Of a stretch of DNA of 44,530 nt, positions 10,235 through 42,411 are shown piece after piece; within the stretch, counting starts at the first letter, position 1, and the number at the start of each line of letters is the position of its first letter. The position numbers and the translations under genes were made by a program. Source of the DNA: an uncultured Acholeplasmatales bacterium (lineage in GTDB: Bacteria > Bacillota_I > Bacilli_A > Acholeplasmatales > Anaeroplasmataceae); NCBI GenBank assembly GCA_944324705.1, contig CALUXI010000013.1, forward strand, positions 1 to 44,530. Reading direction: 5' to 3'. The notes under the pieces are model-generated. The model was not told the DNA's origin. It was given only the letters and a program-made list of their open reading frames with translations, and did no database searches.

Positions 10235-12808
10235 TCAAGCTGGTATTAATATTACATTTATATTTGAAATGGCTGTTAAATTCATACTAACAATAGTTAT
10301 AACATCACCAGGATTTATAGTTATTGTGCAAGCCGCACTAATTTGATTTACCCCATTAATGTTAATTCTTTTATTAGTTGTTGATATAGTTTCACCATTA
10401 ACAATAATATTGAAATTACTTCTACCAATTAAATTATTACCATATAAAGCTATTGTATAGGTACCTGCAGCAACTGAATCAGCAACTACTACATCTATCG
10501 AACTACCAGAATCGCCACCAGAAACATTACCACCTTGCAATGTCCCGATATTACATCCTTCAACATTTGAAATTTTTGGAACCTCAGTTTCTTCAATAGT
10601 ATATTCAATATTTTGACTAGAATCAGCAGCACTATGGATTATAATCAAATACATAGCAGATGAATCAAGTTGTAATAAAGCTGATAATTCTGCAGCAGAA
10701 ACTATTACATCTTCAACAGCCCCATCACTAGAAATTAATGTCACAACAACATCTGATAAAGGTGACGTAATAGTAAATTTATAATATACTCCATCACTTG
10801 TATTACTTAAACCAATACCATATTTGGCCTCATCTAGAGTTGTATTTTTTCTAAGGTAAGTAGAACTAAATGTTCCATTATAAGAACCACTACTTAAATC
10901 TACCAATCTACCAACTGAATTAAATGTAGACAATTGAATAGAAAATTCTTTATGAATATTTAAGTCATCATTGTTATATATGTATATACCATTTCTTTTA
11001 CCGGAAATAGCAGATACTCTAGCAGCTAAAGCATAATCAACTCTATAATCATAGAAGCCATTATTATAGTTTTCTTCAACTAATTCAGGTAACACAATTG
11101 AATCAGCGACTCCACATACTGAACAACTTACAGCTATACTGCCTGCAGTACTAGCAGTTGGTTCAACAATTTCTCCAGCAACATATTTATGACTAGCTTT
11201 AATTACTACACCATCTTCACTGATTTCATTTTTGCCTTCAGCATCACTAAATAACTTATTACATATTGAACATTTATAATATTCAATGTTACCATCTAAT
11301 TCACAAGTTGCTTCTACTGCATCTACTTTAACAATACTATGACCTAAAGCAGCTATTATTATATCTGCTTCACTGATTTCATTCTTACCTTCAGCATCAC
11401 TGAATAACTTACCACATATTGAACATTTATAATACTCAATATTACCTGCAGATTCACAACTTGCCTCTACTACTTCAACTTTATCTAATTTATGACTTGC
11501 AGGAATTATTACATCCTCAGCACTAATTTCGTTTTTGCCTTCAGCATCACTAAATAACTTATTACATATTGAACATTTATAATATTCAATGTTACCATCT
11601 GATTCACAAGTTGCTTCTACTGCATCTACTTTAACAATACTATGACCTAAAGCAGCTATTATTATATCTGCTTCACTGATTTCATTCTTACCTTCAGCAT
11701 CACTGAATAGCTTACCACATATTGAACATTTATAGTACTCAATATTACCAGCTGATTCACAACTTGGACTTACAGCTTCTACCTTGCTTAGTTTATGACC
11801 AGCAGCTGGAATTATTACATCATCAGCACTTATTTCATTTTTGCCTTCTGCATCACTGAATAATTTATTACATACTGAACATTTATAATACTCAATATTA
11901 CCTGCAGATTCACAACTTGCCACTACTGCGTTAACTTTATCTAATTTATGACCAGTAGCTGGAATAATTACAGCATCCGCACTTATTTCATTTTTGCCAT
12001 CGGCATCACTGAATAATTTACCACATATTGAACATTTATAATACTCAATATTACCTGCAGATTCACAACTTGCCGCTACTGCTTCAACTTTATCTAACTT
12101 ATGACTTGCAGGAATTATTACATCATCCGCACTAATTTCGTTTTTGCCATCGGCGTCACTGAATAATTTACCACATATTGAACATTTATAATACTCAATA
12201 TTACCTGCAGATTCACAACTTGCCACTACTGCGTTAACTTTATCTAATTTATGACCAGTAGCTGGAATAATTACAGCATCCGCACTTATTTCATTTTTGC
12301 CATCGGCGTCACTGAATAATTTACCACATATTGAACATTTATAATACTCAATATTAGCAGATGATTCACAACTTGCCACTACTGCGTTAACTTTATCTAA
12401 TTTATGACCAGTAGCTGGAATAATTAAAGCATCAGCACTTATTTCATTTTTGCCTTCTGCATCACTGAATAACTTACCACATACTGAACATTTATAATAC
12501 TCAATATTACCAGATGATTCACAAGTTGAATCAATAGCTTCAGTTTTTACAAGACTATGGCCTTTAGAAGCTATCACAACACTGTTTTTATCAATCTCCT
12601 TTTCCCCTTTAGAATCACTGAAAAATTTATCACAACTACTACATTCATAGTAAGCAATATTTCCATCTTCAGTACAGGTTGCGTCTTTTTCTTTGACTTC
12701 AACTATGTCATGAACATGTTCTTCAACTACTTCCTTACAGGAAGTAATCTCTACGATAATAAAACTAGCTATTAGAGCTACACAAATTGATGTAAGTATC
12801 TTTTTCAT
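10235..12808 (-). CDS. Repeat-rich surface lipoprotein
   Basis: This 857-aa exported lipoprotein has a signal peptide with lipobox EITSC (lipidated C24). Ten tandem repeats of 50-51 residues span residues 45-551, followed by a partial eleventh (552-565) and a C-terminal beta-rich region (about 580-857). Each repeat has the pattern C-E-S-x-G-N-I-E-Y-Y-K-C-S-x-C-x-K-L-F-S-D, then ...GKNEIS and a GHKLDKV linker. The three Cys per repeat suggest a small metal-binding or disulfide module. Similar Cys-rich repeats occur in large secreted proteins of gut Clostridia, with unknown role. I start at the ATG at 12808, which has GGTG upstream and gives a proper signal peptide; the upstream TTG extension lacks this. 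Confidence 0.85.
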   Translation of the reverse strand: MKKILTSICVALIASFIIVEITSCKEVVEEHVHDIVEVKEKDATCTEDGNIAYYECSSCDKFFSDSKGEKEIDKNSVVIASKGHSLVKTEAIDSTCESSGNIEYYKCSVCGKLFSDAEGKNEISADALIIPATGHKLDKVNAVVASCESSANIEYYKCSICGKLFSDADGKNEISADAVIIPATGHKLDKVNAVVASCESAGNIEYYKCSICGKLFSDADGKNEISADDVIIPASHKLDKVEAVAASCESAGNIEYYKCSICGKLFSDADGKNEISADAVIIPATGHKLDKVNAVVASCESAGNIEYYKCSVCNKLFSDAEGKNEISADDVIIPAAGHKLSKVEAVSPSCESAGNIEYYKCSICGKLFSDAEGKNEISEADIIIAALGHSIVKVDAVEATCESDGNIEYYKCSICNKLFSDAEGKNEISAEDVIIPASHKLDKVEVVEASCESAGNIEYYKCSICGKLFSDAEGKNEISEADIIIAALGHSIVKVDAVEATCELDGNIEYYKCSICNKLFSDAEGKNEISEDGVVIKASHKYVAGEIVEPTASTAGSIAVSCSVCGVADSIVLPELVEENYNNGFYDYRVDYALAARVSAISGKRNGIYIYNNDDLNIHKEFSIQLSTFNSVGRLVDLSSGSYNGTFSSTYLRKNTTLDEAKYGIGLSNTSDGVYYKFTITSPLSDVVVTLISSDGAVEDVIVSAAELSALLQLDSSAMYLIIIHSAADSSQNIEYTIEETEVPKISNVEGCNIGTLQGGNVSGGDSGSSIDVVVADSVAAGTYTIALYGNNLIGRSNFNIIVNGETISTTNKRININGVNQISAACTITINPGDVITIVSMNLTAISNINVILIPA
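11156..12676 (-). repeat. Ten tandem ~150-bp coding repeats
   Basis: Ten in-frame units of 150 or 153 bp are very similar at DNA level (for example the units around 11990-12140 and 12290-12440). Units of 51 codons end in TGH or LGH and units of 50 codons lack the Gly, so two subtypes alternate irregularly. The array is expected to recombine and change copy number. Confidence 0.92.
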
Positions 12809-12854
12809 ACACTGCACCGAATACAATTTTGTATTTTTTCCTTTCTTTTATATT

Positions 12855-13242: not shown

Positions 13243-14221
13243 ATAACACCTCTAAAGCATCATCAATATTACTAACTTCAATTAATAACATGTCTGTTTT
13301 AAGGGTGTTATAAACTTCTAATGCTTCTTCATAATTCGAACTAGGGCAGAAAAATATATCAACATCATTACTAACCGCTGTATATATTTTTTGTTTAATA
13401 CCACCGATAGCCCCAACATAACCAGTACTTGAAATAGTCCCAGTTCCTGCAATCTTTTTGCCACCTGTTAAATCATAGTCAAGTAAATCATCTATTAAAG
13501 ACAATGTCCTTAATAAACCACCAGAAGGACCATTAGTATAACCTCTATTAATTGTCAAACTAGGATATATAGAATCATAATTAATATCATAATATGGGTA
13601 ACAATAAACTTTCTCTTCTTTATCAATTTGAATTGTTTTAGTCTCATTATCACGAATATAGGTTATCTTATCCCCTATATTTAAAGAAAGATAACCTTCG
13701 CCATAACTTAAATTCAAATTATTTAATTTATTACCATTAATATCAATTATTTCATCACCTATTTTAAAGTTAGAATTAATGTCATAATAAGTTATAACTA
13801 ATGATTTTAAGCTATAATCGATTTTAATATTTTGATTATAGGCTTGTGCCTTAGTGTAAGCACAAATAATTGCCTGCATAACCGAAGTATTATGTTCGAT
13901 TTCACCCATTTTAAGATTTTCTAAATCACTGAATTTTGATTCATTTGTACTTAATTCTCTAATGCTCACTGATGGTATAAATTGACCTATAAAGTTTTGA
14001 AATAAGGTGGATTTAGAGAAAGATATAACATAAATTGTTGAAAAAGATCCTGTATTTTCCTTATGTTCATTGACTTCTATTATATCTCTTGCCTCAACTA
14101 AACCACCTTTACATGTTATTTCATAATTTGTTCTAAAGCAAGCAATTACAAGTAAAAATGTATTTATAACTACAGCACATAAAATGGCTATATAATGGCG
14201 TAAACTAAGCTTTTTTAGCAT
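13232..14221 (-). CDS. YlbL/SepM-type PDZ and Lon-like membrane protease
   Basis: This 329-aa protein has an N-terminal membrane anchor (about 10-28), a PDZ domain (about 140-200, FKIGDEIIDINGNKL) and a C-terminal S16 Lon-like protease domain with a Ser-Lys dyad: S233 in NGPSGG and K276 in GGIKQK. YlbL and SepM process secreted peptides or membrane substrates at the outer face of the membrane. The start overlaps the ileS stop by 17 nt and has only a weak ribosome site, so translation is probably coupled to ileS. The length is typical of the family (about 340 aa). Confidence 0.9.
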   Translation of the reverse strand: MLKKLSLRHYIAILCAVVINTFLLVIACFRTNYEITCKGGLVEARDIIEVNEHKENTGSFSTIYVISFSKSTLFQNFIGQFIPSVSIRELSTNESKFSDLENLKMGEIEHNTSVMQAIICAYTKAQAYNQNIKIDYSLKSLVITYYDINSNFKIGDEIIDINGNKLNNLNLSYGEGYLSLNIGDKITYIRDNETKTIQIDKEEKVYCYPYYDINYDSIYPSLTINRGYTNGPSGGLLRTLSLIDDLLDYDLTGGKKIAGTGTISSTGYVGAIGGIKQKIYTAVSNDVDIFFCPSSNYEEALEVYNTLKTDMLLIEVSNIDDALEVLYEI

Positions 14222-16913
14222 TTTTAACTATCTCGTGACAACGTGGACATAATCCATCAATTAATTCGTCTTCAACAATCATCCAGCATCTTGAACATGT
14301 ATGACCTTGAGCTTCTTTTACTTCAAAGTGAATTTTGTCATCTTCTTTTATTTCAAGTTGTGAAACAATTAAAACTTGGGCTAAATTACAATTTAAACTA
14401 TTTAATTCTTCTATAACATTTTTAGGGACATAAATTGTTAATCTAGCATTAAAGCTCTTACCAATTACTTTATTAGCACGAGCTTCCTCTAAAGCTTTTA
14501 AAATACCTTCTCTTAATTCCATAAATTTATCAAATTTTGCTTCTAAAGCCCGATCAATATTTTCAGGTAATTTGTCATAATTTAATAAATAAATATCTTC
14601 TTCACTCTTATATGGCATAGCATTATAAGCTTCACTTGTTGTGTGAGGAATAATTGGAGTTAAGACTTTTAATAAATTTAATAAGATATAATGTAATACA
14701 GTTTGTAAGCTCAAACGACGTTTATCATTTGGATCTAAAATATATAAAATATCTTTACTAAAATCTAAATAAAATGAACTTAATGTACTATTTATATATG
14801 TATTTGTTAAACGATATACATCACCAAAACGGAAAGTATCATAGGCTTTATAAATTTCGTTTAAATAATTAACGAATTTAATATACATATATTTATCTAT
14901 ATTTTCTAAATCTTCATATTTTAGGCTATTAGCAGGGTTAAAATCTGAAGTATTAGCTAAAATAAATTTAATAGTATTACGAATTTTACGATAAGTTTCA
15001 GAAATTTGTTTTAATAAATCATTACTAATAGGCATATCTGATTGATAATCAACAGAAGCTACCCATAGACGTAATACATCTGCCCCATTAGTTTTACATA
15101 CATTAGCCGGATCGATGACATTACCTAATGACTTTGACATTTTACGGCCTTCACCATCTAATGTAAAACCATGCGTTACAATTGTTTTATATGGTGCTTT
15201 ACCGAATAAAGCTGTGCTTGTAATTAAGCTTGAGTTAAACCAACCTCTATATTGATCTGCTCCCTCTAAATATAAATCAGCTGGGACATAAATATTATGA
15301 CGAAGTAAAGTCATATAACTTGAACCACTATCAAACCAAACATCCATGATATCCGTTTCTTTAGTAAATTTACCATTAGGTGAATGACTATTTTCATAAC
15401 CAGCTGGTAGTAGCTCTTTAGCATCTTTCATAAACCAAATATCAGAACCATATTCACCAAATAAATCAGCAATGTGCATGAACACTTCTTGTTCTAAAAC
15501 TGGAGTTCCGTCTTCACAATAGAAAATTGGAATTGGTACACCCCAAGCACGTTGACGACTGATACACCAATCATGACGATCTTTAATCATGTTTGTCATT
15601 CTGATATCTCCCCATTTAGGGTACCAAGTTACATCTTTAATATTATTTAATAATTTTGTTTTTATTTTATCAATTGAAGCAAACCATTGTGGAGTAGCTC
15701 TAAAAATTACTGGTTTTTTAGTACGCCAATCATGAGGATAACTATGTACAATTTTTAAAACTTTTAATAAATTACCACTAGCATCTAAATCTTTAATAAC
15801 TTCTTCATTACATGCTGTATAGAATAAACCTTCATACTTACCCGCTTCTTTAGTCATAACCCCTTTATTATCAACTGGACATAGTATATCTAAACCATAA
15901 GTTTTACCAACGTTATAGTCATCTTCACCATGACCTGGAGCTATATGAACTAAACCAGAACCATCTTCAGTTGAAACATAATCACCTAAAATACATGGTG
16001 ATATGCGGTCATATAAAGGATGTTTATATTTTAATCCTTCTAAATCTACACCTTTATACTCTTTGATAACTTCAACTTCACCCAAATCTAATAAATCTTT
16101 TAACTTATCTTTCAATTCTAAGCCAAAAATTAATTTACCTTTATTTGTATTAGCTAACACATAATTAATATCAGGACCAGCGCATACTGCTAAGTTAGCT
16201 GGTAAAGTCCAAGGAGTTGTAGTCCACACTAGGAAACTAGCATCTTTTAATTCTTCTTTTTCACTTATAATTGGGAAAGTAAAATAAATTGAAGAATCTT
16301 CTTTATCATGATATTCAATCTCGGCCTCAGCTAAGGCAGATTCACTTGATGGTGACCAATAAACTGGTTTTAAACCTTTATAAATTAAGCCAAGCTCTAC
16401 CATTTTTGCGAATACTTTAATTTGATCACGTTCAAATTCTTTTTGTAAAGTTAAATATTTTTCATCCCATTTAGCTAAAACACCAAGTCTTTTAAATCCT
16501 ATTTCTTGTCTAGCTACTTGTTTTAATGCATATTCATGGCAATGTTTTCTAAATTCAACAATAGATACTTCTTTGCGGTTAATTCCCTTTTTAGTAACTG
16601 CTACTTCAATAGGTAGACCATGAGTATCCCAACCTGGAATATAGTATGAATAAAAACCTTGCATATTTTTATATCTAACAACAAAATCTTTTAAAATTTT
16701 ATTTAAAGAGTGGCCTAAATGAATATCACCATTAGCATATGGTGGACCATCATGTAATGTATATGCCTTATTACCTTTGTTTTTTTCTAATCTTTTATCT
16801 AAAATTTTCTTTTCTTCCCAGCTAGCTTCAATTAATGGCTCTTTTTGTCCTAAATTACCACGCATTTCAAAACTAGTTTTACCCATATAAAGGGTATCTT
16901 TATAATCTTGCAT
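14205..16913 (-). CDS. ileS: Isoleucyl-tRNA synthetase
   Basis: This 902-aa class I synthetase charges tRNA-Ile with isoleucine. It has the HIGH-type motif HLGH (65-68), the CP1 editing domain (WTTTPWTLPANLAVC), WDTHGLP, the KMSKS loop (GRKMSKSLGN) and a C-terminal zinc finger (CSRCWMIVEDELIDGLCPRC). The architecture and length match the standard bacterial (IleS1) type. AGGAGG precedes the ATG. Expression is controlled by the T-box leader immediately upstream, and it is cotranscribed with ylbL and a small membrane protein. Confidence 0.98.
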   Translation of the reverse strand: MQDYKDTLYMGKTSFEMRGNLGQKEPLIEASWEEKKILDKRLEKNKGNKAYTLHDGPPYANGDIHLGHSLNKILKDFVVRYKNMQGFYSYYIPGWDTHGLPIEVAVTKKGINRKEVSIVEFRKHCHEYALKQVARQEIGFKRLGVLAKWDEKYLTLQKEFERDQIKVFAKMVELGLIYKGLKPVYWSPSSESALAEAEIEYHDKEDSSIYFTFPIISEKEELKDASFLVWTTTPWTLPANLAVCAGPDINYVLANTNKGKLIFGLELKDKLKDLLDLGEVEVIKEYKGVDLEGLKYKHPLYDRISPCILGDYVSTEDGSGLVHIAPGHGEDDYNVGKTYGLDILCPVDNKGVMTKEAGKYEGLFYTACNEEVIKDLDASGNLLKVLKIVHSYPHDWRTKKPVIFRATPQWFASIDKIKTKLLNNIKDVTWYPKWGDIRMTNMIKDRHDWCISRQRAWGVPIPIFYCEDGTPVLEQEVFMHIADLFGEYGSDIWFMKDAKELLPAGYENSHSPNGKFTKETDIMDVWFDSGSSYMTLLRHNIYVPADLYLEGADQYRGWFNSSLITSTALFGKAPYKTIVTHGFTLDGEGRKMSKSLGNVIDPANVCKTNGADVLRLWVASVDYQSDMPISNDLLKQISETYRKIRNTIKFILANTSDFNPANSLKYEDLENIDKYMYIKFVNYLNEIYKAYDTFRFGDVYRLTNTYINSTLSSFYLDFSKDILYILDPNDKRRLSLQTVLHYILLNLLKVLTPIIPHTTSEAYNAMPYKSEEDIYLLNYDKLPENIDRALEAKFDKFMELREGILKALEEARANKVIGKSFNARLTIYVPKNVIEELNSLNCNLAQVLIVSQLEIKEDDKIHFEVKEAQGHTCSRCWMIVEDELIDGLCPRCHEIVKNAKKA

Positions 16914-16929: not shown

Positions 16930-17133
16930 ATATAAAAAGTCCTTAGATTAATATCTAAGGACGAATAAAACCGCGGTACCACCTTAATTCTAGTAACACT
17001 AGCACTTAAAGCTTTAACGCAGCTAACGTAGACCTTTTAAATCTAAATTAATCTAGTGATCCGAATATTAGTCTTTGCCTGTCTCACACCAAACACAGTT
17101 CGCTTTCAAAGGAATTAATATTCCGTCTAAATC
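16930..17133 (-). ncRNA. T-box riboswitch leader of ileS
   Basis: The conserved T-box sequence (minus-strand AAGGTGGTACCGCGG, 16971-16985) precedes a 10-bp intrinsic terminator (16939-16948 with 16953-16962) and a T tract. Stem I shows the AGCGA and GGTGTGAG distal elements. A specifier loop GGATCA is bracketed by GAATATTA/TAATATTC and ATTTAG/CTAGAT stems, placing the Ile codon ATC at 17058-17060. Uncharged tRNA-Ile would promote read-through into ileS. Confidence 0.92.
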
Positions 17134-17139
17134 GTTATA

Positions 17140-17168
17140 ATTATAATAAAATTTAATTTTAATTACAA
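17140..17168 (-). promoter_or_regulatory. Promoter of the ileS T-box
   Basis: TTGTAA (17163-17168) lies 17 bp from a perfect TATAAT (17140-17145) on the minus strand. Confidence 0.7.
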
Positions 17169-17177
17169 TATTTTTTC

Positions 17178-17501
17178 TTAATCTTCATCTAAATCATTTA
17201 AAAAATCATTTAAACTACCATCATTAAAATCAATATTGCGGGCAAATAAATAGGTTGTTTCATTAATTTTAATTGTTCTACCAGAACTAGCATAACAAGC
17301 ACCCGTAAAGAAAGCTAACATTTTATTTGCTGACATTAAATCTAATTTTTCAAAATTTAATACTAAAGGCTTACCTATTTGTAGTTCATCAACTAAATGA
17401 GCAGCGGCCTCATCATCATCTTCTAGTTGTTCCATTATAATTCTTTCACTAGCTAAACCTAAATCTTCCTTAACTTCCTTTTTACGACTAAACAGTCCCA
17501 T
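17178..17501 (-). CDS. sepF: SepF-like cell-division protein
   Basis: This 107-aa protein starts MGLFSRKK (an amphipathic membrane-targeting helix in SepF), then has a short acidic linker and a SepF core (about 27-100): AAAHLVDELQIGKPLVLNFEKLD followed by MLAFFTGACYASSGRTIKI. SepF polymerises on the membrane, binds FtsZ and shapes the septum. It is shorter than the B. subtilis protein (about 150 aa) because the linker is reduced. The ATG lies inside the end of jetC (14-nt overlap), with the GGTGAGG site formed by jetC codons, so it is translationally coupled to the condensin genes rather than sited in the usual ylm/div cluster. Confidence 0.85.
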   Translation of the reverse strand: MGLFSRKKEVKEDLGLASERIIMEQLEDDDEAAAHLVDELQIGKPLVLNFEKLDLMSANKMLAFFTGACYASSGRTIKINETTYLFARNIDFNDGSLNDFLNDLDED

Positions 17502-20500
17502 TTGCCTCACCTTCCTTTTTAATAATCGGCATTACTTGGGCTTTTACACCTTGACGTGCCATAATTAAAATAGTATCAGCATAATCTTGTAATAAGCTCA
17601 TTCTTTGTGGTGGACAAGCTATAATTGTTTGAAGTGGCATAGAAGTAATAAAGTCCATCATAGCACGCATTCTATTACTATCCATCTTATCAAATACCTC
17701 ATCAAACATAACAATACCGATTGGATCGCCACCAAAAGCTTGATTTTTAGTATAAATTCTAACAAAAGAAGCAATAATAGCTACATAGAATGGTACCTGT
17801 GTTTCACCACCGGATTTTTCTTTAAATACTTTAGAATATGACATAGATTCACCTGCTTGGTTTGTAATCTTAATATCATAATCCATATAAGTACGATAAT
17901 CTGTAAATTTATTAATAACCCCATGGGAATTAATTTCATCTACCGCTAATGAATCAAATAATTCTTTAATTTGAGCTTCATATTTAGCTTCAAAGCTATT
18001 AGTAAATAATCCTGTAGTTCCATCATCAACATCAGATTTAACCATTTCATAGAAAGCTCCATATTCACTAGATTTAGGGAAAATAAATTCATAAGTATCA
18101 TTACCAAATCTAATATGACTTAAAGTATCATTAATCTTACCAATTTCAATTTCAGCTTGTTCAATATTAGCTCTTAATTTAGCTATAAAGTCTTCTTTAA
18201 AAATTAATTCAGCTTCTTCTCTAGCTGTTCTTACTTTTTGTTCATATTTAACAAGTTCTGTCTTCTCTAATTTATTTAATTCTGCATAATAAGCTGGCAT
18301 CTCATTAATACCAATTGAGAAACTTGAATCATAGTCATTAATATACTGATATTGTTTTGTTACTAAAGCTTCTTGCAATGTATCAAAGGTATTATCATTA
18401 ATATTATATTTTTGACCAAACAAATTGTAAGCTTCTTTATAAGAATGACCTTCCATAAATTCTTTAAATTCATTATTAGCTTTATCAATTAATGTAATAT
18501 TATCCTTACCTAATTTAGCTAACTCTTCTTTCTTAACAAGCAATAATTCATTTTGTTCTTGTACTTTTTCTTGTAAATTTAAAATACTTTGTGTTATACG
18601 ACCAATTTCTAAAGTAATAGAACTCTTCTTTTCTTCATTATTTTTAATTGTTTGTTCAATATGTTTATAATCATCTTCAACATCTTTAAGGCTTGAAGTA
18701 TTTAAATGTTCTTTTTGAAGATTTAAACCTTTTAATGTATCTTTCTCATACTCTAATTTTAAAGCTCCATCAATACCTACTAAAATGGCTTGGAAATCTA
18801 AACTATCAAGCAATGTTAAATCTTCTTCTAAACTATTAATTTCATTTTGAATTCTTTCATATTCGGCAGTGGTAGTTTTACCCTTTTCTTCCCATAATTT
18901 TTGTTGAGATTGATAGGCATTCTTACCACAGAACGGTTTTTCAATATTAGGGTTCATACTTCTAACTGTATATTGACTATATAACAAATAATCATTAGTA
19001 ATAGCTGTATTATAGTTTTCTAATTCTAATTCATTAGAACACATAATAACATTACCACAAGTCATATTAATATAACGGCGAGCATCTTCATTTTCAGATG
19101 ACATAATACTAGCTAAAGAATTAGGTTCAAACTTGTTAAAATTAGTAATTTTCTTCGTATTTACTAAACCAATACCATAGAATTGATATCTATCTTTAAC
19201 TCTGGCAAAAATTTGTAAAGCTTGATCATAATAACGTGGTTCAACAATCATATTGAAACGTCTATTTCCTAAGAATACCTCAATAGTATCTTGCCATTTT
19301 GGATCAGTTATTTCAACAAGTTCAGCAAAAATAAACACCGGTATATCATAATTATAAATACGTTTTAAACCTTCTTGTATTTCATCACGCAAACCTAATA
19401 ATTTACTAGGGAAATTAACCTTATTTTGACCTATTTTCTTTAATGCTGTAGCTATTTCATTGACATTAGCTATAACATTAGATTTTTGTAAGGTTAAAGC
19501 ACCTAAATCTTGGTTATCTTTTTGTTTATATTGTTCAACAAGGTTTCTTGCTTCTGTCAATTTTAATCTCGTAAAATCAACTTCATTTTGATTTAAATTA
19601 ATTAAAGACATATTAGCTAATTCATTAAAGATTTTTCTTTGACTGTTTTTCTTTCTTAAAGCATTTAAATTATCTTTAAACTCTGTAACATACTTTAAGA
19701 ATTTAGCATTATCTTCTTCTAATTCTTCAACATTTTTTTCTCTAGTTTCAATTTCTTTAGTGATATTTTCATTATTTTTAAATGTATCATCATTAGCTAA
19801 AACATTATATAATTCTTTACTACGTTGTTGTAAAGCACTAATTTCTCTTTCAATTTGTCTTAAATCACTTTCACGATTATTCTTCTTAACATTTTCTTTT
19901 TCAATATCATTTTTTAAATTTTTAATATCATTATTTACTTTTTCTTTAGCAAATAAAGTTTCTAAATATTCAATGTAATTCTTATTCTCTAAGATTTTTT
20001 CAAGTTCTTCATGAACACTTGTAATATCTTTTAAATCAGTTATCTTTTTCTTAATTAAATTTAAAGTATTTTCTAATTCTTTATAAGAACGAATAGTATC
20101 TTTAATAGCTGATACATCAATTTCTTTTTCTTCTAAGACATTTTGATAAATAAATTCTTTAACATCAGCAATAGGTTTAAAAGCCAAAGCTTTAGGTATT
20201 AATTTAAAGAAATCTTCATTAATTGAACCAAAGGCATTACGATATGCACGTTTAGCTTCTTTTTTAGTTAAGTAATACTCAAAATCAGGATTATTTTTTC
20301 TAAAAACAACAGTTGAATAAATCATACCTTGAGGTGAAACAAACCAACTATCAGAAATTTTACTATCCACTTTATAAAATAGAGACTTTACTGGCATTAA
20401 TTCACCAAAGGCATCGATTACAACCCCAACCGTGAAGTCTAGATTTGTTTTTTCATCATGAAACTCTAAGGCAACATGACCAGTCACATCTCCATCACGT

Positions 20501-20745
20501 AAATATTCCTTGTCATCTAAACCTAATTTACATTTAACATAACCACGCAAGTCTCTTTTTGACTTTTCATTAGCGGCCATGTTAAAGTTAGTTTCCCCAG
20601 CCGTAATAACATACATAATGGCATCCATAATTGTAGATTTACCACTAGCATTAGGTCCTGTTAATAAAACATGATTAGAAACATTAATTGTTTCATTAGC
20701 TAAATAGTGCCAATTAATTAGTCTTATTTTTGTTAACTTTTTCAT
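17488..20745 (-). CDS. jetC: JetC/MksB-like SMC ATPase
   Basis: This 1085-aa SMC-like ATPase of the Wadjet/MukB type has Walker A GPNASGKST (30-38), two long coiled-coil arms around a central hinge-like region (about 440-600), an ABC signature KSGGE (977-981) and Walker B VMFDEVFDKMD (D1015-E1016). The N-terminal LINWHYL segment is typical of JetC. In known JetABCD systems this subunit extrudes DNA loops and senses small circular plasmids, which JetD then cuts. Here it follows jetA and jetB with a 4-nt overlap and no jetD follows. It could act in plasmid defence with a distant nuclease or as a housekeeping condensin. Confidence 0.9.
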   Translation of the reverse strand: MKKLTKIRLINWHYLANETINVSNHVLLTGPNASGKSTIMDAIMYVITAGETNFNMAANEKSKRDLRGYVKCKLGLDDKEYLRDGDVTGHVALEFHDEKTNLDFTVGVVIDAFGELMPVKSLFYKVDSKISDSWFVSPQGMIYSTVVFRKNNPDFEYYLTKKEAKRAYRNAFGSINEDFFKLIPKALAFKPIADVKEFIYQNVLEEKEIDVSAIKDTIRSYKELENTLNLIKKKITDLKDITSVHEELEKILENKNYIEYLETLFAKEKVNNDIKNLKNDIEKENVKKNNRESDLRQIEREISALQQRSKELYNVLANDDTFKNNENITKEIETREKNVEELEEDNAKFLKYVTEFKDNLNALRKKNSQRKIFNELANMSLINLNQNEVDFTRLKLTEARNLVEQYKQKDNQDLGALTLQKSNVIANVNEIATALKKIGQNKVNFPSKLLGLRDEIQEGLKRIYNYDIPVFIFAELVEITDPKWQDTIEVFLGNRRFNMIVEPRYYDQALQIFARVKDRYQFYGIGLVNTKKITNFNKFEPNSLASIMSSENEDARRYINMTCGNVIMCSNELELENYNTAITNDYLLYSQYTVRSMNPNIEKPFCGKNAYQSQQKLWEEKGKTTTAEYERIQNEINSLEEDLTLLDSLDFQAILVGIDGALKLEYEKDTLKGLNLQKEHLNTSSLKDVEDDYKHIEQTIKNNEEKKSSITLEIGRITQSILNLQEKVQEQNELLLVKKEELAKLGKDNITLIDKANNEFKEFMEGHSYKEAYNLFGQKYNINDNTFDTLQEALVTKQYQYINDYDSSFSIGINEMPAYYAELNKLEKTELVKYEQKVRTAREEAELIFKEDFIAKLRANIEQAEIEIGKINDTLSHIRFGNDTYEFIFPKSSEYGAFYEMVKSDVDDGTTGLFTNSFEAKYEAQIKELFDSLAVDEINSHGVINKFTDYRTYMDYDIKITNQAGESMSYSKVFKEKSGGETQVPFYVAIIASFVRIYTKNQAFGGDPIGIVMFDEVFDKMDSNRMRAMMDFITSMPLQTIIACPPQRMSLLQDYADTILIMARQGVKAQVMPIIKKEGEANGTV

Positions 20746-21326
20746 TCTTCATCACCGCCTTGATTAATTCTATTAATTGTTTGATATAAAGAATTGATAT
20801 CTTCACCTGGAATAGCAAGTAATATAGTAGGCATTAAAACAATTCGGCAAGTTGAAGTTGATAAGTCACCTGTAGCTTCAATTAAATTATATCTTCTAAA
20901 TAATCTTAAAGAGGCAACTAAATCTGTTTTATTTAACTTTTTCTTTATCTCTAAGTTATCATATTTTTCATGGATGTCCGCAACTTGACAGACAACATTT
21001 TCATTTAATGATGTTTCTTTTAATTTTTCATGATATAAAAGACGCATAATTAACAATATTAATGTTTCATCTCTTTTTAAATGTAATGTTTGACCAACTG
21101 TAAAACCACCAAGCATAACTGAACCTTGTTGTTGATTTAAAGTTAATTCAAGACCTAAAATCTTAAAAAATTCATCAAAAACATCTTTATAACTCATCAA
21201 AAAATAATAAGCTTCTTTATTATCTTTTTTATCTCTTGCTAAAAAGTTATAGGTTAGTAGTTTATTAGCTACATCTTTAAACATTTGTTGTTGAGGATTA
21301 GTCATCTTTTCTAAGCTTTCTAACAT
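20742..21326 (-). CDS. jetB: JetB/MksE-like condensin subunit (DUF4194 type)
   Basis: This 194-aa winged-helix-type protein has the size and position of JetB (MukE/MksE-like kite subunit). Recognisable segments are FFKILGLELTLNQQQGSVML, LKRDETLILLIMRLLYHEK and a C-terminal wHTH-like stretch LVASLRLFRRYNLIEA. Such proteins bind the kleisin JetA and DNA. It sits 1 nt after jetA and overlaps jetC by ATGA, so the three are one operon. The assignment rests on gene order as much as on motif reading. Confidence 0.85.
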   Translation of the reverse strand: MLESLEKMTNPQQQMFKDVANKLLTYNFLARDKKDNKEAYYFLMSYKDVFDEFFKILGLELTLNQQQGSVMLGGFTVGQTLHLKRDETLILLIMRLLYHEKLKETSLNENVVCQVADIHEKYDNLEIKKKLNKTDLVASLRLFRRYNLIEATGDLSTSTCRIVLMPTILLAIPGEDINSLYQTINRINQGGDEE

Positions 21327-21327
21327 T

Positions 21328-22743
21328 TTAAACCTTCTTCCTAATTAAAAAGTCTTTCATTCTTAATCTTATATTTTCAATTTTCTTATCTAATACTAAT
21401 ACTTCAAAATCTTTTTCATTATCTAATGCATATAATATAGCATAAATAGCTAACATACATGTATCTTTATCAGTATTATATAAAATAACATCACTACCAT
21501 AGAAACGATCATCTTTTAAATGTTCATATAAGAAACTCTTAGCTATATCTTCACTATAAGGAGTTTGATATTGTTTAATAAAATCTGATTCAATATCAAA
21601 ATCAAACAAAACATTATCATCTAACATCAAATTATAATTATGTTTATAAGCTCCTCGTGGAATATAAATTGATGATTCATTTATTGCTCTATTATTTTTA
21701 AGTTTATAAAGACCATTGATTTGACTGATAGCCTTATCAATATGACCTTCTTTATTACTTTTTCTAACATATTTTAATAAGCCATTTAGTTTACCGATAA
21801 TATTATCGTCTTCAGATACTAAGAATTTGATTCTCGCAATTGTACTATTTACATAAGTTTTGCTCTTCTCATCTATTTCTGTAATCAAGCCATCTAAAGA
21901 ATTAAAAACATCAATAATTTCATCAATATTTCTAATCGCCATCATCATTCTTTTTTCTTCCGGAACTTTTGGGAAGTTTGTCCCTATAGCTGTTAAGATA
22001 AGTTCACTAGTTTCATATTCTTCTAATCTAGATACAATTCTTAATCTATATCTATTAATGTTATCAGACATTTTTAATTTTGCATATCCTTGTTCAACAA
22101 AGTTTTCTCGATAAGAAACTAAGTTTTCCATTAAATCTTTAACTTCTACTTGATCTAAAACTCCACTAATATAGTTCTTTAATCTAGCATCTAGCCTTCT
22201 AATAGAACGTAATAATAATTTAGTATTACGATTTACTTCTTGCATAATCACTGCATAATCAACAGAATCCATATTATTTAATAGAGCATAAATCGTATAA
22301 ATATATCCTTGATATTCTTTATTATCAATATTACTTATATCCTCATTATCGCTATGATCAACATAATTAGAATTGTAAACATGCATTAAAGCTTCCGTAA
22401 TAATAATACCTACATCAGAAAAATTTAGGACTTCAACATAGTCATTTGTGATGTCAACATAAATCCAACCACACTCTTCCATTCTTCTTAAAACATAATT
22501 AGCCAACTCACGGTTAGATTTAGGATTTGCTTCTTCATCATTTACATCTTCAACATCATAACTATATTTGTTTGTTTCTAAATAATGAACTAATTCATCA
22601 GTAATAATCTTTTTTTCAATACCTAATAAAGATCCTGTTTCATAAACCTTAAAAGCTTCGATAATCAAAGCTGCATAAACTCTTTTATTTTTAGAACTTA
22701 AAAGTGAAAAAAAGTTATCAGGAATAACGTTAAATACATCCAT
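21328..22743 (-). CDS. jetA: JetA/MksF-like kleisin subunit (DUF5716 type)
   Basis: This 471-aa protein is predicted to be the kleisin-like (MukF-type) subunit of a JetABC condensin. The N-terminus MDVFNVIPDNFFSLLSSKNKR and the following winged-helix region with LANYVLRRMEECGWIYVD are typical of the Wadjet JetA family, and long helices follow (about 150-330). I start at the ATG at 22743 because GAGGTG lies 7 nt upstream; the 18-residue upstream extension has no ribosome site. It is the first gene of the operon, with a strong extended -10 promoter just upstream. Confidence 0.87.
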   Translation of the reverse strand: MDVFNVIPDNFFSLLSSKNKRVYAALIIEAFKVYETGSLLGIEKKIITDELVHYLETNKYSYDVEDVNDEEANPKSNRELANYVLRRMEECGWIYVDITNDYVEVLNFSDVGIIITEALMHVYNSNYVDHSDNEDISNIDNKEYQGYIYTIYALLNNMDSVDYAVIMQEVNRNTKLLLRSIRRLDARLKNYISGVLDQVEVKDLMENLVSYRENFVEQGYAKLKMSDNINRYRLRIVSRLEEYETSELILTAIGTNFPKVPEEKRMMMAIRNIDEIIDVFNSLDGLITEIDEKSKTYVNSTIARIKFLVSEDDNIIGKLNGLLKYVRKSNKEGHIDKAISQINGLYKLKNNRAINESSIYIPRGAYKHNYNLMLDDNVLFDFDIESDFIKQYQTPYSEDIAKSFLYEHLKDDRFYGSDVILYNTDKDTCMLAIYAILYALDNEKDFEVLVLDKKIENIRLRMKDFLIRKKV

Positions 22744-22767
22744 TAATTTCACCTCAATCTTTATTAA

Positions 22768-22797
22768 ATTATAGCATACTTGACTTAATATATACAA
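22768..22797 (-). promoter_or_regulatory. Promoter of the jetABC-sepF operon
   Basis: A perfect TATAAT (22768-22773) is preceded by TGC (extended -10), with a weak -35, TTGTAT (22792-22797), 18 bp away. Transcription would start about 20 nt before the jetA ATG. Confidence 0.65.
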
Positions 22798-22822: not shown

Positions 22823-22857
22823 AATAAAAAACCCCCAAATATTAAGGGTTTTTTTAC
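22823..22857. terminator. Bidirectional terminator after the ABC exporter genes
   Basis: An AACCC/GGGTT core stem (22830-22834 with 22846-22850) lies between T tracts on both strands. It ends the long leftward operon from 33008 and insulates jetA. Confidence 0.8.
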
Positions 22858-27192: not shown

Positions 27193-29307
27193 TTACCTTC
27201 TTTCTTCTAAATTAATCTCATAAGTATAAGAATATATATAATCTAAATCTTCATTTATAAAATTAATTAATAATTCTATTTTACCTAATTCATATACATA
27301 TTCTAATACTATATTACCATCACTAATATTAGTTGGGAAAAAAACTCCATTAATTTTTATATTTATAATTTCATACGAATCAAAATCTACTAAATCCGGA
27401 TTCAAATTTAAAATTAATCTATCATCTATATAAGTATAATCTAAATTTAATTCTGGTTTATTAAACGGATAGCGATACGTTTGATAAGCAAAACTATTTT
27501 CCTCTTTTTCATTTAAATCAACATTAAAATAACTATAATATAAAAGAAAATCATACGTGAAACCTGGAATTGCATCTAATTCTAGCCTAAAATAATTACC
27601 ATCTTCAATAAAATCAGTCCGTGTATATTCTATTCCTTCACTTGTTTTAATAACCAATTTATCTACCTTTAAGCTCGGTAATAAATTTGAAAAATAAAAA
27701 CTTACTTCTAATTTATTACTATCTTTGACCTCATAACTAATTTCTGGTGTTATTCTAGGTGTTTGTGTAACTACTTCATAATGATAAACTATAGTATCTA
27801 AACCACCTTGACTATCATTTACATAAATAAAGAAATAAATATCATAACGTGTCCCAAAATCAAGATTAGTAATATATCTATTATCCCCTGTTAAATAGTT
27901 AACATAATTACTATTATAAGGTGAATAGGCAATATGAATACTTTCTAAAATATTATCTTTATCAATTATTTCATAATTACATAAAATAGAATTGTCTCCT
28001 GTTTCAATTAAAGGATTAAATATAATATTTTCTTTAGCCTTAGTTTTAATAGTTTTAACTTCTTCCTTATTTTCTTCTAAATACTGATAAGAAAATTTTA
28101 TTTTATAAATAGTATTAGCTTTTAAATTCGTAAAACTACCAACTAAATCTGAGCTAGACATTACTAAATTATCATAAACATCGTATAAATTGATACTATA
28201 ATTACTAACAATATTATCAATATCATTTAAAACTATTTCATAACTTATACTTGTCTTATCACTTTCCACTTGAAAACTAGTTAAACTTGGCATTGTCAAA
28301 CTTAAAGTTTTAACCAAATATTTAACTTCTTTCATCTCATCAAACATATTAAATGATAAAACTATTTCATAAGTAGTTTCAGGTTCTAAATACAATATTT
28401 CCTTACTATTTGTTACATCACTGCCATTACATAAAACTTTAATATCATTACAATTAGAATGATAAATAATTTCATAACTTATCGAAGTTGCATAAACTTT
28501 AAACTCCAATTCTACATCCGAATATGTCCTAACTTCATCCTCATACATTAAATAAGAAGAAACTCCATTTCCATCAAAAAAATCAGCATAACATATTAAA
28601 ACTATTTTATAAGTACTGCCATAATCTAAATCAATAAATTCAACCGTTTCATTATTTTTACTAAAATCTTTGACATTAAGAATTTCATCATCTTTAATTA
28701 AATACCACCTATAACTTCCTTCTAAATATAAATTATCTTTAATAACATAATCATACTTTATACTATAAGTTGTTTTAAATATATTTTTAATATAAATTTC
28801 AGGTCTAGTTGTTTCCTTAACTCCAACCTTAATTAAAGTATCTTTATTAGTTAAATCAACATCTAAAATACTATTACCATAAACATATTTAATCCCATTT
28901 AAATCATAATTATAACTACCAGCTTCACTTGGTGCTTTAATTTTAATAATTATTTCTTCACTAGTTGAAGTATCTAAAAATTGATAACTTTGATATTTAA
29001 CGTCTAAAACCGTAATTGATAATATTTCATAAGATTCCTTATTATTTAATAAAATGTGTAAGTAAAAATCTTCATTAGGATTGACATAATGATCAACCTG
29101 TTCCTCACTAACTATAACATCATCAGGAATTTCATAACCTAAATTTCTTTTATTACTACTAGTAGTAGAAACATATAAGGATTCATAAGTCGGAGGAGTT
29201 AGAGGAACTTGATTTGGTTTCTCAATTTCAGTTTTATTTTTACAAGCAGTTAAAAGAAACAAGAAAATAATTACTAGAAAACTAAGTTTGATAGATAATT
29301 TCTTCAT
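27193..29307 (-). CDS. Surface lipoprotein with FN3-like beta domains, paralogous to the upstream membrane protein
   Basis: This 704-aa lipoprotein has a signal peptide with lipobox LLTAC (C22). The remainder is a chain of about six beta-sandwich (fibronectin-III-like) units of about 90 residues, marked by repeats of x-YxIxFSYxY and LxxGTxYxIxL segments. Its N-terminal portion (VDHYVNPNEDFYLHILLNNK, then SYEILSITVLDVKYQSYQF) matches the ectodomain of the preceding membrane protein. The ATG at 29307 has GGGGAGG upstream and overlaps that gene by 26 nt. Expected location: anchored outside the membrane. Function unknown; ligand sensing or competition with the membrane protein is inferred. Confidence 0.82.
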   Translation of the reverse strand: MKKLSIKLSFLVIIFLFLLTACKNKTEIEKPNQVPLTPPTYESLYVSTTSSNKRNLGYEIPDDVIVSEEQVDHYVNPNEDFYLHILLNNKESYEILSITVLDVKYQSYQFLDTSTSEEIIIKIKAPSEAGSYNYDLNGIKYVYGNSILDVDLTNKDTLIKVGVKETTRPEIYIKNIFKTTYSIKYDYVIKDNLYLEGSYRWYLIKDDEILNVKDFSKNNETVEFIDLDYGSTYKIVLICYADFFDGNGVSSYLMYEDEVRTYSDVELEFKVYATSISYEIIYHSNCNDIKVLCNGSDVTNSKEILYLEPETTYEIVLSFNMFDEMKEVKYLVKTLSLTMPSLTSFQVESDKTSISYEIVLNDIDNIVSNYSINLYDVYDNLVMSSSDLVGSFTNLKANTIYKIKFSYQYLEENKEEVKTIKTKAKENIIFNPLIETGDNSILCNYEIIDKDNILESIHIAYSPYNSNYVNYLTGDNRYITNLDFGTRYDIYFFIYVNDSQGGLDTIVYHYEVVTQTPRITPEISYEVKDSNKLEVSFYFSNLLPSLKVDKLVIKTSEGIEYTRTDFIEDGNYFRLELDAIPGFTYDFLLYYSYFNVDLNEKEENSFAYQTYRYPFNKPELNLDYTYIDDRLILNLNPDLVDFDSYEIINIKINGVFFPTNISDGNIVLEYVYELGKIELLINFINEDLDYIYSYTYEINLEERR

Positions 29308-30562
29308 AATTACCTCCCCATAACTCATAATTAATAATTATTTCACCAATTATAGAATTAGCTATATAGGCATAATAAGCTAAATCTCCATTACTTGTCA
29401 CTTCAATCCTTTCTGAATTAACCATTAAATAATTGACTTTAATATTAGGTAAAGTATTAAATTTAAATAGATAACTTTCTGTTAATTTAGTTAATTCAAC
29501 ATTTAAAAAATTACTATCTTTAGTTTTAATCGTTAAATCTGTTAAATAATCTTCACCATTATAATTATATTTTAAACTTATATTGTAAGTAGTATCAGCT
29601 TCTAACCCAAACACTTGTTTGCCATAATCATTATTGTTCAAAATTAAACTTAAATCATAATCAGTATTAATAACAAGGCCATTACTATAAATATCTAAAC
29701 TATATGTAAATGGTAACGGGGTAGTTATTTCTTTATTAGTTAAGGTAATATTCCTTAAACCTAAACCATCTAACAAATCAAAATTACCTGTAATGACTAT
29801 TAAATATGAAGTCCCTGGCTTTAAATCATTAAATAAATAACTTGTATTATCTAAATAATAATCTTTTATTTTAATATTTTCTTCATATAAACTAATTACT
29901 ACACTGTTACTGCTATACTTAATTAAATCAGTATAACTGATATTAAAACTTATACTATTAGGGTTTTTAGTAATATTTAATAATTCAATACTAGGACTAG
30001 GATAAGCAATAGCCAAACTAACTTCTCTACTACCGGCATAAACACATTCTTTAATATTAGTTCCATCAATATACTTGATACTATTAATATATAATTTTTC
30101 AACCCCAGATGTATCTTGGCACTTATAATTTAAATAAATAGTATCAATGTCTGAACCACTATCAAATTGATAACTAGTAAACTTAATATTATTGATTTCA
30201 ACTGATAAGATTTCATATTGATCAGGATTAGCTAATTCAATACTTAAAACAATTTCCTCATCTGGAGTAAAATAATAATCAAAATCCGTAACTTGATTAT
30301 TTGTTTCTTTAACATTTAAACTCATTTCCTGTTTAACTTTACTGCTAGCCGCAAGAGATAAAAAGGTAACCTTAGCCGTATCAATAAAAATTATACAAAG
30401 TAATATAACTATTACAATAACAGAAATTGTACTAAAAATATATGGGAATATTTGACCAAAATGAAGACGTTTTTTAAGATTTATTTGATTTTTAATATTC
30501 TTTAATTCTTCTTTATTACTAACTTCATTTAAGTAAGTTTTCTTTAAATCTTTAAGCTTCAT
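29282..30562 (-). CDS. Single-pass membrane protein in the anti-sigma position
   Basis: This 426-aa protein has a short charged cytoplasmic segment (about 1-35), one membrane helix (about 40-62) and a large extracellular beta-rich region. It is encoded immediately after the ECF sigma gene and overlaps it by 11 nt, the standard place for an anti-sigma factor. The cytoplasmic part is helical and lacks the zinc HxxxCxxC motif of ZAS-type anti-sigmas. Its ectodomain (DYYFTPDEEIVLSIELANPD, then YEILSVEINNIKFTSYQF) is paralogous to the lipoprotein encoded next. I take the second ATG (30562), which has GGGAG at an 8-nt spacing. An anti-sigma function is inferred, not seen as a known domain. Confidence 0.72.
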   Translation of the reverse strand: MKLKDLKKTYLNEVSNKEELKNIKNQINLKKRLHFGQIFPYIFSTISVIVIVILLCIIFIDTAKVTFLSLAASSKVKQEMSLNVKETNNQVTDFDYYFTPDEEIVLSIELANPDQYEILSVEINNIKFTSYQFDSGSDIDTIYLNYKCQDTSGVEKLYINSIKYIDGTNIKECVYAGSREVSLAIAYPSPSIELLNITKNPNSISFNISYTDLIKYSSNSVVISLYEENIKIKDYYLDNTSYLFNDLKPGTSYLIVITGNFDLLDGLGLRNITLTNKEITTPLPFTYSLDIYSNGLVINTDYDLSLILNNNDYGKQVFGLEADTTYNISLKYNYNGEDYLTDLTIKTKDSNFLNVELTKLTESYLFKFNTLPNIKVNYLMVNSERIEVTSNGDLAYYAYIANSIIGEIIINYELWGGNYEEIIYQT

Positions 30563-31070
30563 TTTTTTCATCTCCCTTCAAATAATTTTTTACTTTATTT
30601 AAGGCATTTTTATAAATATTATAACAGGTTGTTTTACCCTTATTTAATTCTTTAGCAATATCTTTAAAATTAAAATTATAAATAAAATGCAACATAAAGA
30701 TATATAATTCTTCTGAATTTAATACTTTACTAACACTTTCCCAAACTTCATTGGCAATTGGTAATTTATTTTCTAAATACTTTTGTTCTTCTATGTATTT
30801 GTTTTCATATTGTTTCTTTCTTAAAATTAATCTCGCCTCGTTTTTAGCAATTTGTAATAAATAATATTTTAAATTTCCTCCCCTAAAATTATCAATATTA
30901 TCAATCAGCTTAATAAAAACAGTTTGACAAATATCTTCAACTTCATCAATATCCTTAATTATCTGTAAAGCAACATACTTAACTAAACCAACATATTTAT
31001 AATAAACTTCCTCAAAAGCTTTATCATCTCTCTTTTTTAAACGATTAATTAAAATCTTTTCATTCAGCAA
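30552..31070 (-). CDS. ECF-type RNA polymerase sigma factor
   Basis: This 172-aa sigma-70-family factor has region 2 (DDKAFEEVYYKYVGLVKYVA, with the -10 recognition stretch DIDEVEDICQTVFIKL) and region 4 (LNSEELYIFMLHFIYNFNFK, then DIAKELNKGKTTCYNIYKNA), with nothing between, as in ECF sigmas. It would redirect RNA polymerase to an envelope-related regulon. The start is probably the TTG at 31070, 8 nt after AAGGGG; a GTG at 31079 overlaps the ribosome site. It sits between a lipoprotein gene (12-nt gap) and the putative anti-sigma gene (overlap), so it is coexpressed with its likely regulator. Confidence 0.85.
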   Translation of the reverse strand: MLNEKILINRLKKRDDKAFEEVYYKYVGLVKYVALQIIKDIDEVEDICQTVFIKLIDNIDNFRGGNLKYYLLQIAKNEARLILRKKQYENKYIEEQKYLENKLPIANEVWESVSKVLNSEELYIFMLHFIYNFNFKDIAKELNKGKTTCYNIYKNALNKVKNYLKGDEKNEA

Positions 31071-31082
31071 GTATATCACCCC

Positions 31083-33008
31083 TTAAACTACATAAATTGT
31101 CTTTTCAAAAGTATATAACTCATCATAATATGTATATGTATATTCTATTTTAATCTCTACATAATTATAACCACTAACATCACAAGTAATACTATTTCCT
31201 TCTGTTTGCTCTATTACTACTCCTAAATGCCATAAAACCGCTATTTTTATAATATTACTTGCCCCACTAACAGTTAAAATATTATTTTCTAAATAATAAT
31301 CACAGATAACATCTGGTTCTTCTTCTGTTTTAAATTGAATATATTCTTCTATAGTTACAGAAGTTGAATAAACATTATAATAATATGTAACATTATAATA
31401 TTGACCTGGATTTAAGCCTTTAATTATACCCTTTAAATCACTACTTTCATAACGATAAGTCAAATAATTATCCGTAATAACAAAATAGAAATTAGTAAAT
31501 GTACTTCCTTCAACTACATTTTTAAATTCATACGAAATCCCTATTGGTGTACTTTCATAAATAAATTCTAATTTAGCATCTTCTTCCGGAATATTTAAAT
31601 AATAGACATCTATTCCTTCAAAAGGTTGATAGTGACTAAGTTCATTATTTTTATATTTTACTTTTATAGTATAATAACCAGGTTTTAAATTTTTAAAAAT
31701 ATTATTACATTCGCTAATAATCAATTCATTAGCTAAATAAATCTCAACATTAATCAAATCATAACTATAGTTAGGATTAATATTAATGATATTATTATAA
31801 GTATCATAATAATAACTAATAGGAGATTCCTGGGTAGTAGGAACTCCAGTATGGTAGTTTCCACTAGTTTCTAGGCACTTTTCTTCTAATGTAAATATAT
31901 CTTTATAATAAACTCTATAAATAAATTTATAGTCTGTATCATACATATAATTTTTAAAACTTAAAGTGCCCCAAAAACTTGATAGTGTATCTACTAATTT
32001 ATCTCCTTCATAGATTAGAACTTCATATTTAGTAACATTATCACTTTGACAATTAAAACCAAAAAGTAATTCATCATCATAACTTGTATCAATAAAAACA
32101 TTTAAATTTTGAGGATTATTATTAGTAAAACTAATATTTAATTCACTAAAATAAATTTTATTTTTATATTTAAAATTTATTTTAACCATATATTCTAAAA
32201 TACTACCCTTAGGTTTTGAAATTATAAAATTAGCACTATCAACTAAATATTCTTTGCCACCAATCTCATAAGATATAACTTCTACATCACTGAAATTAGA
32301 AGTCACACTACAACTATAAGTAAAATTATCAATAGAAACAGCATTCACATTAATAGGAATTATACCACTTAAACTATCACTTTTTATTTGATAAACACTA
32401 CCATTATTTAATTTTAAATAATAAGAAAGATTAAAAATTGTAGGAATATTCGCTAAATCTATTTTTAAATTTGACTTTAACAAATCATCATACACTATTT
32501 TTTCATAATCAGTATTAACACTAACATAAATTGGAATATTTAAATCATAATTACTAGCATCAATAAGTAAACTATCAATATTTATAGTATAAATAGGATC
32601 ATTTAATTTAAAATCAGTTAAATCAATTACTTCATATTCATAAATTTTATTAATATTATAATAATTATCATCATAGACGTAACTTGTAATATTTATAGTA
32701 TTTAAACCAACTTTATTCAATTTATAATCAACACAGTTATTAACTAAATTATAATAATTATTATTAATAATAAGACCTGTAATTTGATTTTTACTTAAAA
32801 CATTAATACTTACTACTTCACCAATTAATACATAATTAGTGTCAGCTATATTATCTACTAAAAGTTCAAATCTAAGATCATTATTCTCTAAATCAGTTAA
32901 ATTATCATCATTTTCTATTATTTCATTATCAGAAGTGTCATCAATTGAATTATTATTACAACTTACTAAAAAGAAAAAACAAAAGAAAAATAATAATATT
33001 TTAAGCAT
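31083..33008 (-). CDS. Surface lipoprotein, first gene of the ECF operon
   Basis: This 641-aa lipoprotein starts MLKILLFFFCFFFLVSCNN: lipobox LVSC with C17 lipidated, followed by an Asn/Asp-rich linker (18-45). The rest is beta-rich, Tyr/Asn-rich and looks like FN3- or Ig-like units, similar in style to the other two ectodomain proteins of the operon but more divergent. AGAGGTG precedes the ATG at 33008. I recognise no enzyme motif. It may be a sensor or structural surface protein whose expression is linked to the ECF factor. Confidence 0.78.
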   Translation of the reverse strand: MLKILLFFFCFFFLVSCNNNSIDDTSDNEIIENDDNLTDLENNDLRFELLVDNIADTNYVLIGEVVSINVLSKNQITGLIINNNYYNLVNNCVDYKLNKVGLNTINITSYVYDDNYYNINKIYEYEVIDLTDFKLNDPIYTINIDSLLIDASNYDLNIPIYVSVNTDYEKIVYDDLLKSNLKIDLANIPTIFNLSYYLKLNNGSVYQIKSDSLSGIIPINVNAVSIDNFTYSCSVTSNFSDVEVISYEIGGKEYLVDSANFIISKPKGSILEYMVKINFKYKNKIYFSELNISFTNNNPQNLNVFIDTSYDDELLFGFNCQSDNVTKYEVLIYEGDKLVDTLSSFWGTLSFKNYMYDTDYKFIYRVYYKDIFTLEEKCLETSGNYHTGVPTTQESPISYYYDTYNNIININPNYSYDLINVEIYLANELIISECNNIFKNLKPGYYTIKVKYKNNELSHYQPFEGIDVYYLNIPEEDAKLEFIYESTPIGISYEFKNVVEGSTFTNFYFVITDNYLTYRYESSDLKGIIKGLNPGQYYNVTYYYNVYSTSVTIEEYIQFKTEEEPDVICDYYLENNILTVSGASNIIKIAVLWHLGVVIEQTEGNSITCDVSGYNYVEIKIEYTYTYYDELYTFEKTIYVV

Positions 33009-33032
33009 TTTTGACACCTCTCTTATTTAATT

Positions 33033-41763: not shown

Positions 41764-42411
41764 TTATTTATTTAATAATTCAATAATTTCAGCTTTCTTT
41801 AAAGTTGAATAGCCTTTAAGACCCTTTTCTTTACATAAAGCCTTTAAATCAGCTAATGTCATACTGTCATAATCAACAGATTTAGCTTTAGGAGCTTTTT
41901 TTGGAGTTTCTTTAACTTCAATTTTAGCTTCCTTTTTAACTTCTTCTTTAACAACTGGTTTAACAGCTTCTACATGTTTAGCATGATTTGCAGTTCTTTC
42001 AGCTTTAGGAGCTGATTTAACAAATACATGTTCAACAACTTCTTTAGCTTTTGGATTTGCTAAACCTTCTTTAGCTACAGCTACTAAATCAGCAAAACCT
42101 TTAGCATCATTTACAGCTAATTCAGCTAACATCTTTCTATTAACAATAACGTCTTTATGTTTTAAACCATTAATAAATGCTGAATAAGTAATGTCATTTA
42201 AACGGCAAGCTGCATTAATACGGCTAATCCATAACTTACGGAAATCTCTTTTTCTAACTTTACGATCTCTATAAGCATATTGTAATGAACGCATTACTTG
42301 TTCATGAGCTGTTTTATATAATGTGTGTTTTGAACCATAATAACCTTTAGCAAGCTTTAATACGGCCTTACGACGACGTCTTGCTACATATCCACCTTTA
42401 ACTCTTGGCAT
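41764..42411 (-). CDS. rplT: Ribosomal protein L20 with C-terminal SAP-like extension
   Basis: Residues 1-118 are a standard L20 ([20 protein letters not shown]... [20 protein letters not shown]... [10 protein letters not shown]), needed for 50S assembly and, in Bacillota, autoregulation of the infC operon. The normal protein ends near residue 119, but this one continues for about 97 residues: a Lys/Glu/Ala/Pro-rich linker (119-180) and a SAP/Rho-N-like helix-extended-helix (183-214, [19 protein letters not shown] followed by [10 protein letters not shown]). SAP-type motifs bind nucleic acid. There is no frameshift or stop, so this is a true fusion. A terminator follows the stop closely. Confidence 0.95.

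Follow-up and report, generated by a model that had tools for sequence, protein, structure and literature searches.

The 44,530-nt contig CALUXI010000013.1 of an uncultured Acholeplasmatales bacterium (assembly GCA_944324705.1), hereafter the window, carries a jetABC locus. We propose that it encodes a complete core of a Wadjet type-I structural maintenance of chromosomes (SMC) complex which has permanently lost its nuclease, JetD, and which probably serves as the only SMC condensin of the cell. Type I JetA, JetB and JetC were all recognized by Pfam and PADLOC (Table 1), and together they provide the SMC ATPase, the kleisin and the kleisin-interacting tandem winged-helix element (KITE) subunit of a condensin. 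The ATPase motifs of JetC are intact (Walker A GPNASGKS, signature SGGETQ, Walker B VMFDE). An earlier note on this DNA had found no JetD-like frame in the window; a search with PF09983 confirmed this and extended it to the whole host genome, so that the note's suggestion of a jetD encoded elsewhere was not borne out. The search for Smc-ScpAB that it had proposed returned neither Smc above the cut-off nor ScpA in the same assembly (55 contigs, 97.4% complete). This assembly is fragmented, but JetD, Smc and ScpA are again missing in close relatives. The note's second suggestion, a nuclease-free MukBEF-like condensin, is well supported by these absences, by vertical inheritance of the core complex in the family and by recurrence of the pattern across a number of related families.

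Distribution of JetABC, JetD, Smc and ScpA

Among 60 order-level relatives, JetC was present in 51 and JetD in six, while neither Smc nor ScpA exceeded the cut-off in any; control genomes gave Smc in 10/14 and ScpA in 9/14. All 36 sampled genomes of family f1, the Anaeroplasma relatives (including Anaeroplasma bactoclasticum, locus L051), encode JetC and five encode JetD. A hidden Smc was considered and rejected, as only sub-threshold coiled-coil or ABC matches were obtained, the best often being JetC itself, and ScpA was independently absent. Across the class (198 genomes), JetC was found in 55, JetD in 16, Smc in 95 and ScpA in 97; the ScpA-positive genomes are essentially the Smc-positive ones, and the negative calls are therefore reliable. 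JetC occurs without Smc in families f1, f3, f7, f11, f21, f23 and f24 and in one genome of f5 (G045), which has only a jetABCD of divergent type, and with Smc in f12 and f17. JetD accompanied JetC in 8 of the 11 Smc-positive genomes (one of them, G066, by a weak match on another contig) but in only 3 of the 44 Smc-negative ones (Fisher p 1.9e-5, uncorrected for kinship). About a quarter of the 198 genomes have neither Smc nor JetC, so Smc loss is not always accompanied by JetABC.

Additional copies were found in four f1 genomes (G003, G025, G027 and G029), each an extra, divergent jetABC of about 30% identity followed by jetD. As these second copies are complete jetABCD operons, loss of JetD is specific to the core copy. 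A fifth genome, G018, has a JetD match and no second jetC was found in it. Family f1 thus holds a core nuclease-free complex plus an occasional ordinary Wadjet.

Phylogeny and selection

All trees were of the 'quick' type, unrooted and with several long branches, which leaves the exact number of JetD losses uncertain. In the RpoC tree, families f1, f2, f3, f4, f5, f7, f23 and f24, all Smc-less, form one clade (Shimodaira–Hasegawa-like approximate likelihood ratio test, 100), and f11 and f21 make up a second, separate Smc-less clade. The JetC tree places the JetD-less complexes in separate, fully supported clades: A, which holds the window complex (f1, f2, f4, f23, f24) and follows family boundaries; B, the Acholeplasma clade (f3); C (f12); D (f11, f21); and E (f7), which lies beside the jetABCD copies of f12. 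The long rows L116, L135, L138 and L139 fall outside clades A–E. The JetA tree recovered the same clades. A single JetD-less origin of clades A and B was rejected by the approximately unbiased test, with a log-likelihood 127 lower. Judged from these trees, the number of separate JetD-less clades is at least five. The most economical history would have one loss of Smc-ScpAB at the base of the large clade and another in f11/f21, with JetD-less Wadjet-type cores standing in, at least one replacement (f3) and one loss (f5). We favour, with less confidence than for the window complex itself, the wider proposal that in Acholeplasmatales and lineages related to them Wadjet defence cores became the sole chromosomal condensin on several independent occasions, through loss of JetD and of Smc-ScpAB.

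The ratio of non-synonymous to synonymous substitution was 0.08-0.18 for the jet genes and 0.11-0.20 for ileS, with synonymous sites near saturation; on these estimates jetA, jetB and jetC are under purifying selection of an order similar to that on ileS. Immediately after SGGETQ, almost every JetC of clades A, B and E has V or I, but T is the usual residue among JetD-linked JetCs and in clades C and D.

An IFDR motif is reported to mediate contact between JetD and the JetB N-terminus (PMC10586767). An N-terminal F-x3-[YF]-x2-L was present in all ten JetD-linked JetBs, while F and Y/F at these positions remain in 2/34 JetBs of clade A, 7/14 of clade B and 0/3 of clade E; this motif was chosen post hoc and may differ from the IFDR site. 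The pattern is suggestive of relaxed selection on a JetD docking site in clade A, with which it would fit.

Function of the complex

One model for the activity of the window complex is that JetA-linked JetBC motors would load onto chromosomal DNA and extrude loops with ATP, so compacting and resolving sister chromosomes as Smc-ScpAB and MukBEF do elsewhere. Without JetD, a finished extrusion would have no cutting outcome. A chromosomal role is suggested because Smc and ScpA are absent and the complex is inherited as part of the core genome, and the locus may well be essential.

Another possibility is that JetABC is still a defence system, which traps or silences plasmid or phage DNA uncut or uses an unrelated nuclease encoded elsewhere. 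Homology to Wadjet-I, with PADLOC calling all three subunits, and the JetD-less systems that lie beside Smc in f12 would be compatible with this. We consider it unlikely, however, as the complex is core in 36/36 family genomes, whereas Wadjet has been described as sporadic (PMC10586767), as jetABC has evolved as slowly as ileS, and as the true jetABCD operons are separate and patchy in the same family.

Several observations weigh against the reading of the window complex as a sole condensin. Several of the other JetD-less clades retain the JetB motif, with F and Y/F mostly present in C and D. Family f12 has JetD-less jetABC beside Smc, and loss of JetD therefore does not by itself imply replacement of Smc. 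The Smc state changes only twice on the RpoC tree, which leaves a kinship-corrected test of the association between JetD-less jetABC and Smc loss without power. Moreover, the sister family f5 lacks Smc and ScpA, and JetABC is also missing from 9/10 of its genomes (e.g. G049, G042 and G051); a condensin is therefore not strictly required in the order Acholeplasmatales. About a quarter of the 198 genomes have neither Smc nor JetC, so Smc loss is not always accompanied by JetABC.

In f12, six loci (L116, L118, L119, L121, L123 and L129) are JetD-less jetABC in genomes with Smc-ScpA, three of which also have a complete jetABCD. It is possible that this combination represents an intermediate state.

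Relationship to known SMC complexes

The window complex shares with Wadjet type I (JetABCD, also MksBEFG or EptABCD) its three subunits, the A-B-C gene order, the PADLOC JetA1/B1/C1 assignments and an intact ATPase, but it is JetD-less, core and vertically rather than sporadically inherited, and its hosts lack Smc-ScpAB. Since JetD, by which a Wadjet defence system is defined, was not found, the complex should not be classed among such systems. Like the MksBEF of Pseudomonas aeruginosa, which is thought to derive from JetABCD through loss of JetD and has a chromosomal role (PMC10586767), it would be a JetABC-like condensin without the nuclease; MksBEF, however, coexists with Smc-ScpAB, whereas no SMC condensin other than the window complex was found here. 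MukBEF apparently took over from Smc-ScpAB in enterobacteria (PMC10586767), as is proposed for the window complex; the window JetC is far nearer in sequence to Wadjet-I JetC.

The kleisin and KITE folds of MukBEF also match the models of JetA and JetB. For the AlphaFold model of JetA (mean predicted local distance difference test score, pLDDT, 73), which is of modest quality and gave loose whole-model superpositions, the best PDB relatives were Wadjet-II JetA (9qe0) and MukF. The JetB sequence had no relevant match among solved structures; comparison of its predicted fold (pLDDT 81) instead gave MukE and JetB as best relatives (Foldseek E about 1e-6). By analogy, we infer that the window complex may work like MksBEF and MukBEF.

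Reviews have suggested that MukBEF and MksBEF descend from Wadjet via loss of the nuclease, a transition inferred from distant sequences. What is new here is the existence of lineages in which a close relative of Wadjet-I is the only SMC condensin found; in at least two lineages without Smc-ScpAB, which they have lost, whole families have a JetD-less Wadjet-I core as sole SMC complex. No report of such a replacement in Acholeplasma or Mollicutes was found in a literature search that left most subscription journals outside its reach. If the proposal is correct, the step from which MukBEF and MksBEF are proposed to have arisen would have living replicates in these lineages, and intermediates with both Smc and JetABC would still exist today. 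The culturable relatives (Anaeroplasma bactoclasticum and probably Acholeplasma laidlawii) would make the conversion of a defence motor to a housekeeping one directly testable. Defence-finding tools, meanwhile, will give the label 'Wadjet' to what is likely a core chromosome gene.

Locus layout and the sepF link

The minus strand of the window reads jetA-jetB-jetC-sepF, after which come a T-box leader and ileS (Table 1); ileS is under separate regulation because the T-box leader precedes it. The start of jetA was placed at the ATG at 22743 rather than the upstream TTG at 22797.

Table 1. Features of the jetABC locus and its flanks, by window position
Feature	Position	Strand	Evidence
jetA, kleisin, 470-471 aa	21328..22743	-	PF18982 2.7e-64; PADLOC JetA1 1.2e-100
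jetB, KITE subunit, 194 aa	20742..21326	-	DUF4194 7.8e-29; MksE 1.8e-6; PADLOC JetB1 5.8e-60
jetC, SMC ATPase, 1085 aa	17488..20745	-	SbcC_Walker_B 7.4e-24; PADLOC JetC1 1.7e-303; PDB JetC 8as8/9qxt
sepF, 107 aa	17178..17501	-	PF04472 1.8e-10; single match genome-wide
T-box leader of ileS	16954..17144	-	RF00230 78.7 bits, E 1.5e-17; under gathering score 93
ileS, isoleucyl-tRNA synthetase	14205..16913	-	open reading frame; sepF-ileS order in other families
Terminator-like hairpin closing upstream ABC-exporter unit	22826..22854	-	

The earlier note had described genes in overlapping order behind one promoter. Overlap holds for jetB/jetC (4 nt) and jetC/sepF, where the sepF ATG (17501-17499) does lie, as claimed, inside the 3' end of jetC (frame end 17488; 14 nt), but a gap of 1 nt lies between jetA and jetB. 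A single promoter for jetABC-sepF is plausible, given the upstream hairpin, a promoter-like TTGTAT-18-TATAAT ahead of jetA and the lack of any credible minus-strand terminator before the T-box, where just one weak 5-pair hairpin was seen, within jetC. Promoter-like matches in the region are not commoner than in shuffles, however, and the jetA promoter thus has no statistical support.

The survey of jetC-sepF adjacency that the note had called for placed sepF, by coordinates, directly after jetC in 36/36 f1 genomes. In the 66 fetched loci, which include some duplicate records of one species, the two genes are neighbours on one strand, and in 63/66 the jetC stop and the sepF start lie -14 to +10 nt apart. 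Co-transcription and translational coupling are likely in view of the invariant adjacency, and the coordinated expression that the note had drawn from the 14-nt overlap is likely on the same ground; condensin and SepF, the Z-ring membrane anchor, would then be made from one mRNA. The link is missing in families f2-f5 and f23-f24. In f2-f5 sepF is separate from jetABC: the gene order there is ychF-ylmE-sepF-ileS, immediately preceded in f3 and f5 by ftsZ (gene names assigned from the sequences), and jetABC of f1 was therefore inserted upstream of an ancestral sepF-ileS pair. As in the sepF-ileS division cluster of Bacilli, sepF is immediately upstream of ileS; ychF-ylmE precede it there, and in f1 jetABC takes their place. 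On this comparison the adjacency is a family-specific insertion of jetABC, and sepF is the normal division gene at its customary position.

The proposal of a physical JetABC-SepF unit joining condensin to the Z-ring could draw on the adjacency in f1 and the tight spacing, but is improbable: the link is confined as described, sepF of f2-f5 following ychF-ylmE or ftsZ-ychF-ylmE and preceding ileS, no fusion was observed, and insertion suffices to explain the proximity. The search for another sepF that the note had envisaged gave one match only in the genome, with a PF04472 domain, a single housekeeping copy ahead of ileS as is usual. With sepF in its ancestral place, and jetABC absent there in other families, the claim of a condensin tied to septum formation is not supported. 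Least probable of all is a matching JetD acting in trans or hidden in an assembly gap, an idea which the fragmented assembly and the JetD of 5/36 f1 genomes might allow but which is already largely refuted, as 31/36 have no JetD and in 4/5 of the positive genomes jetD adjoins its own divergent jetABC (the partner in G018 was not found).

Other features of the window

Three long proteins (711, 429 and 644 aa) encoded at 27193-33017 (minus strand) matched no Pfam family. An 863-aa protein at 10235-12826 (minus strand) contains many C2H2/CCHC-like zinc-finger-type repeats, which is unusual for a bacterium, and the ribosomal protein L20 encoded at 41764-42411 (minus strand) has a C-terminal extension of ~100 aa that matches Rho_N/SAP domains.
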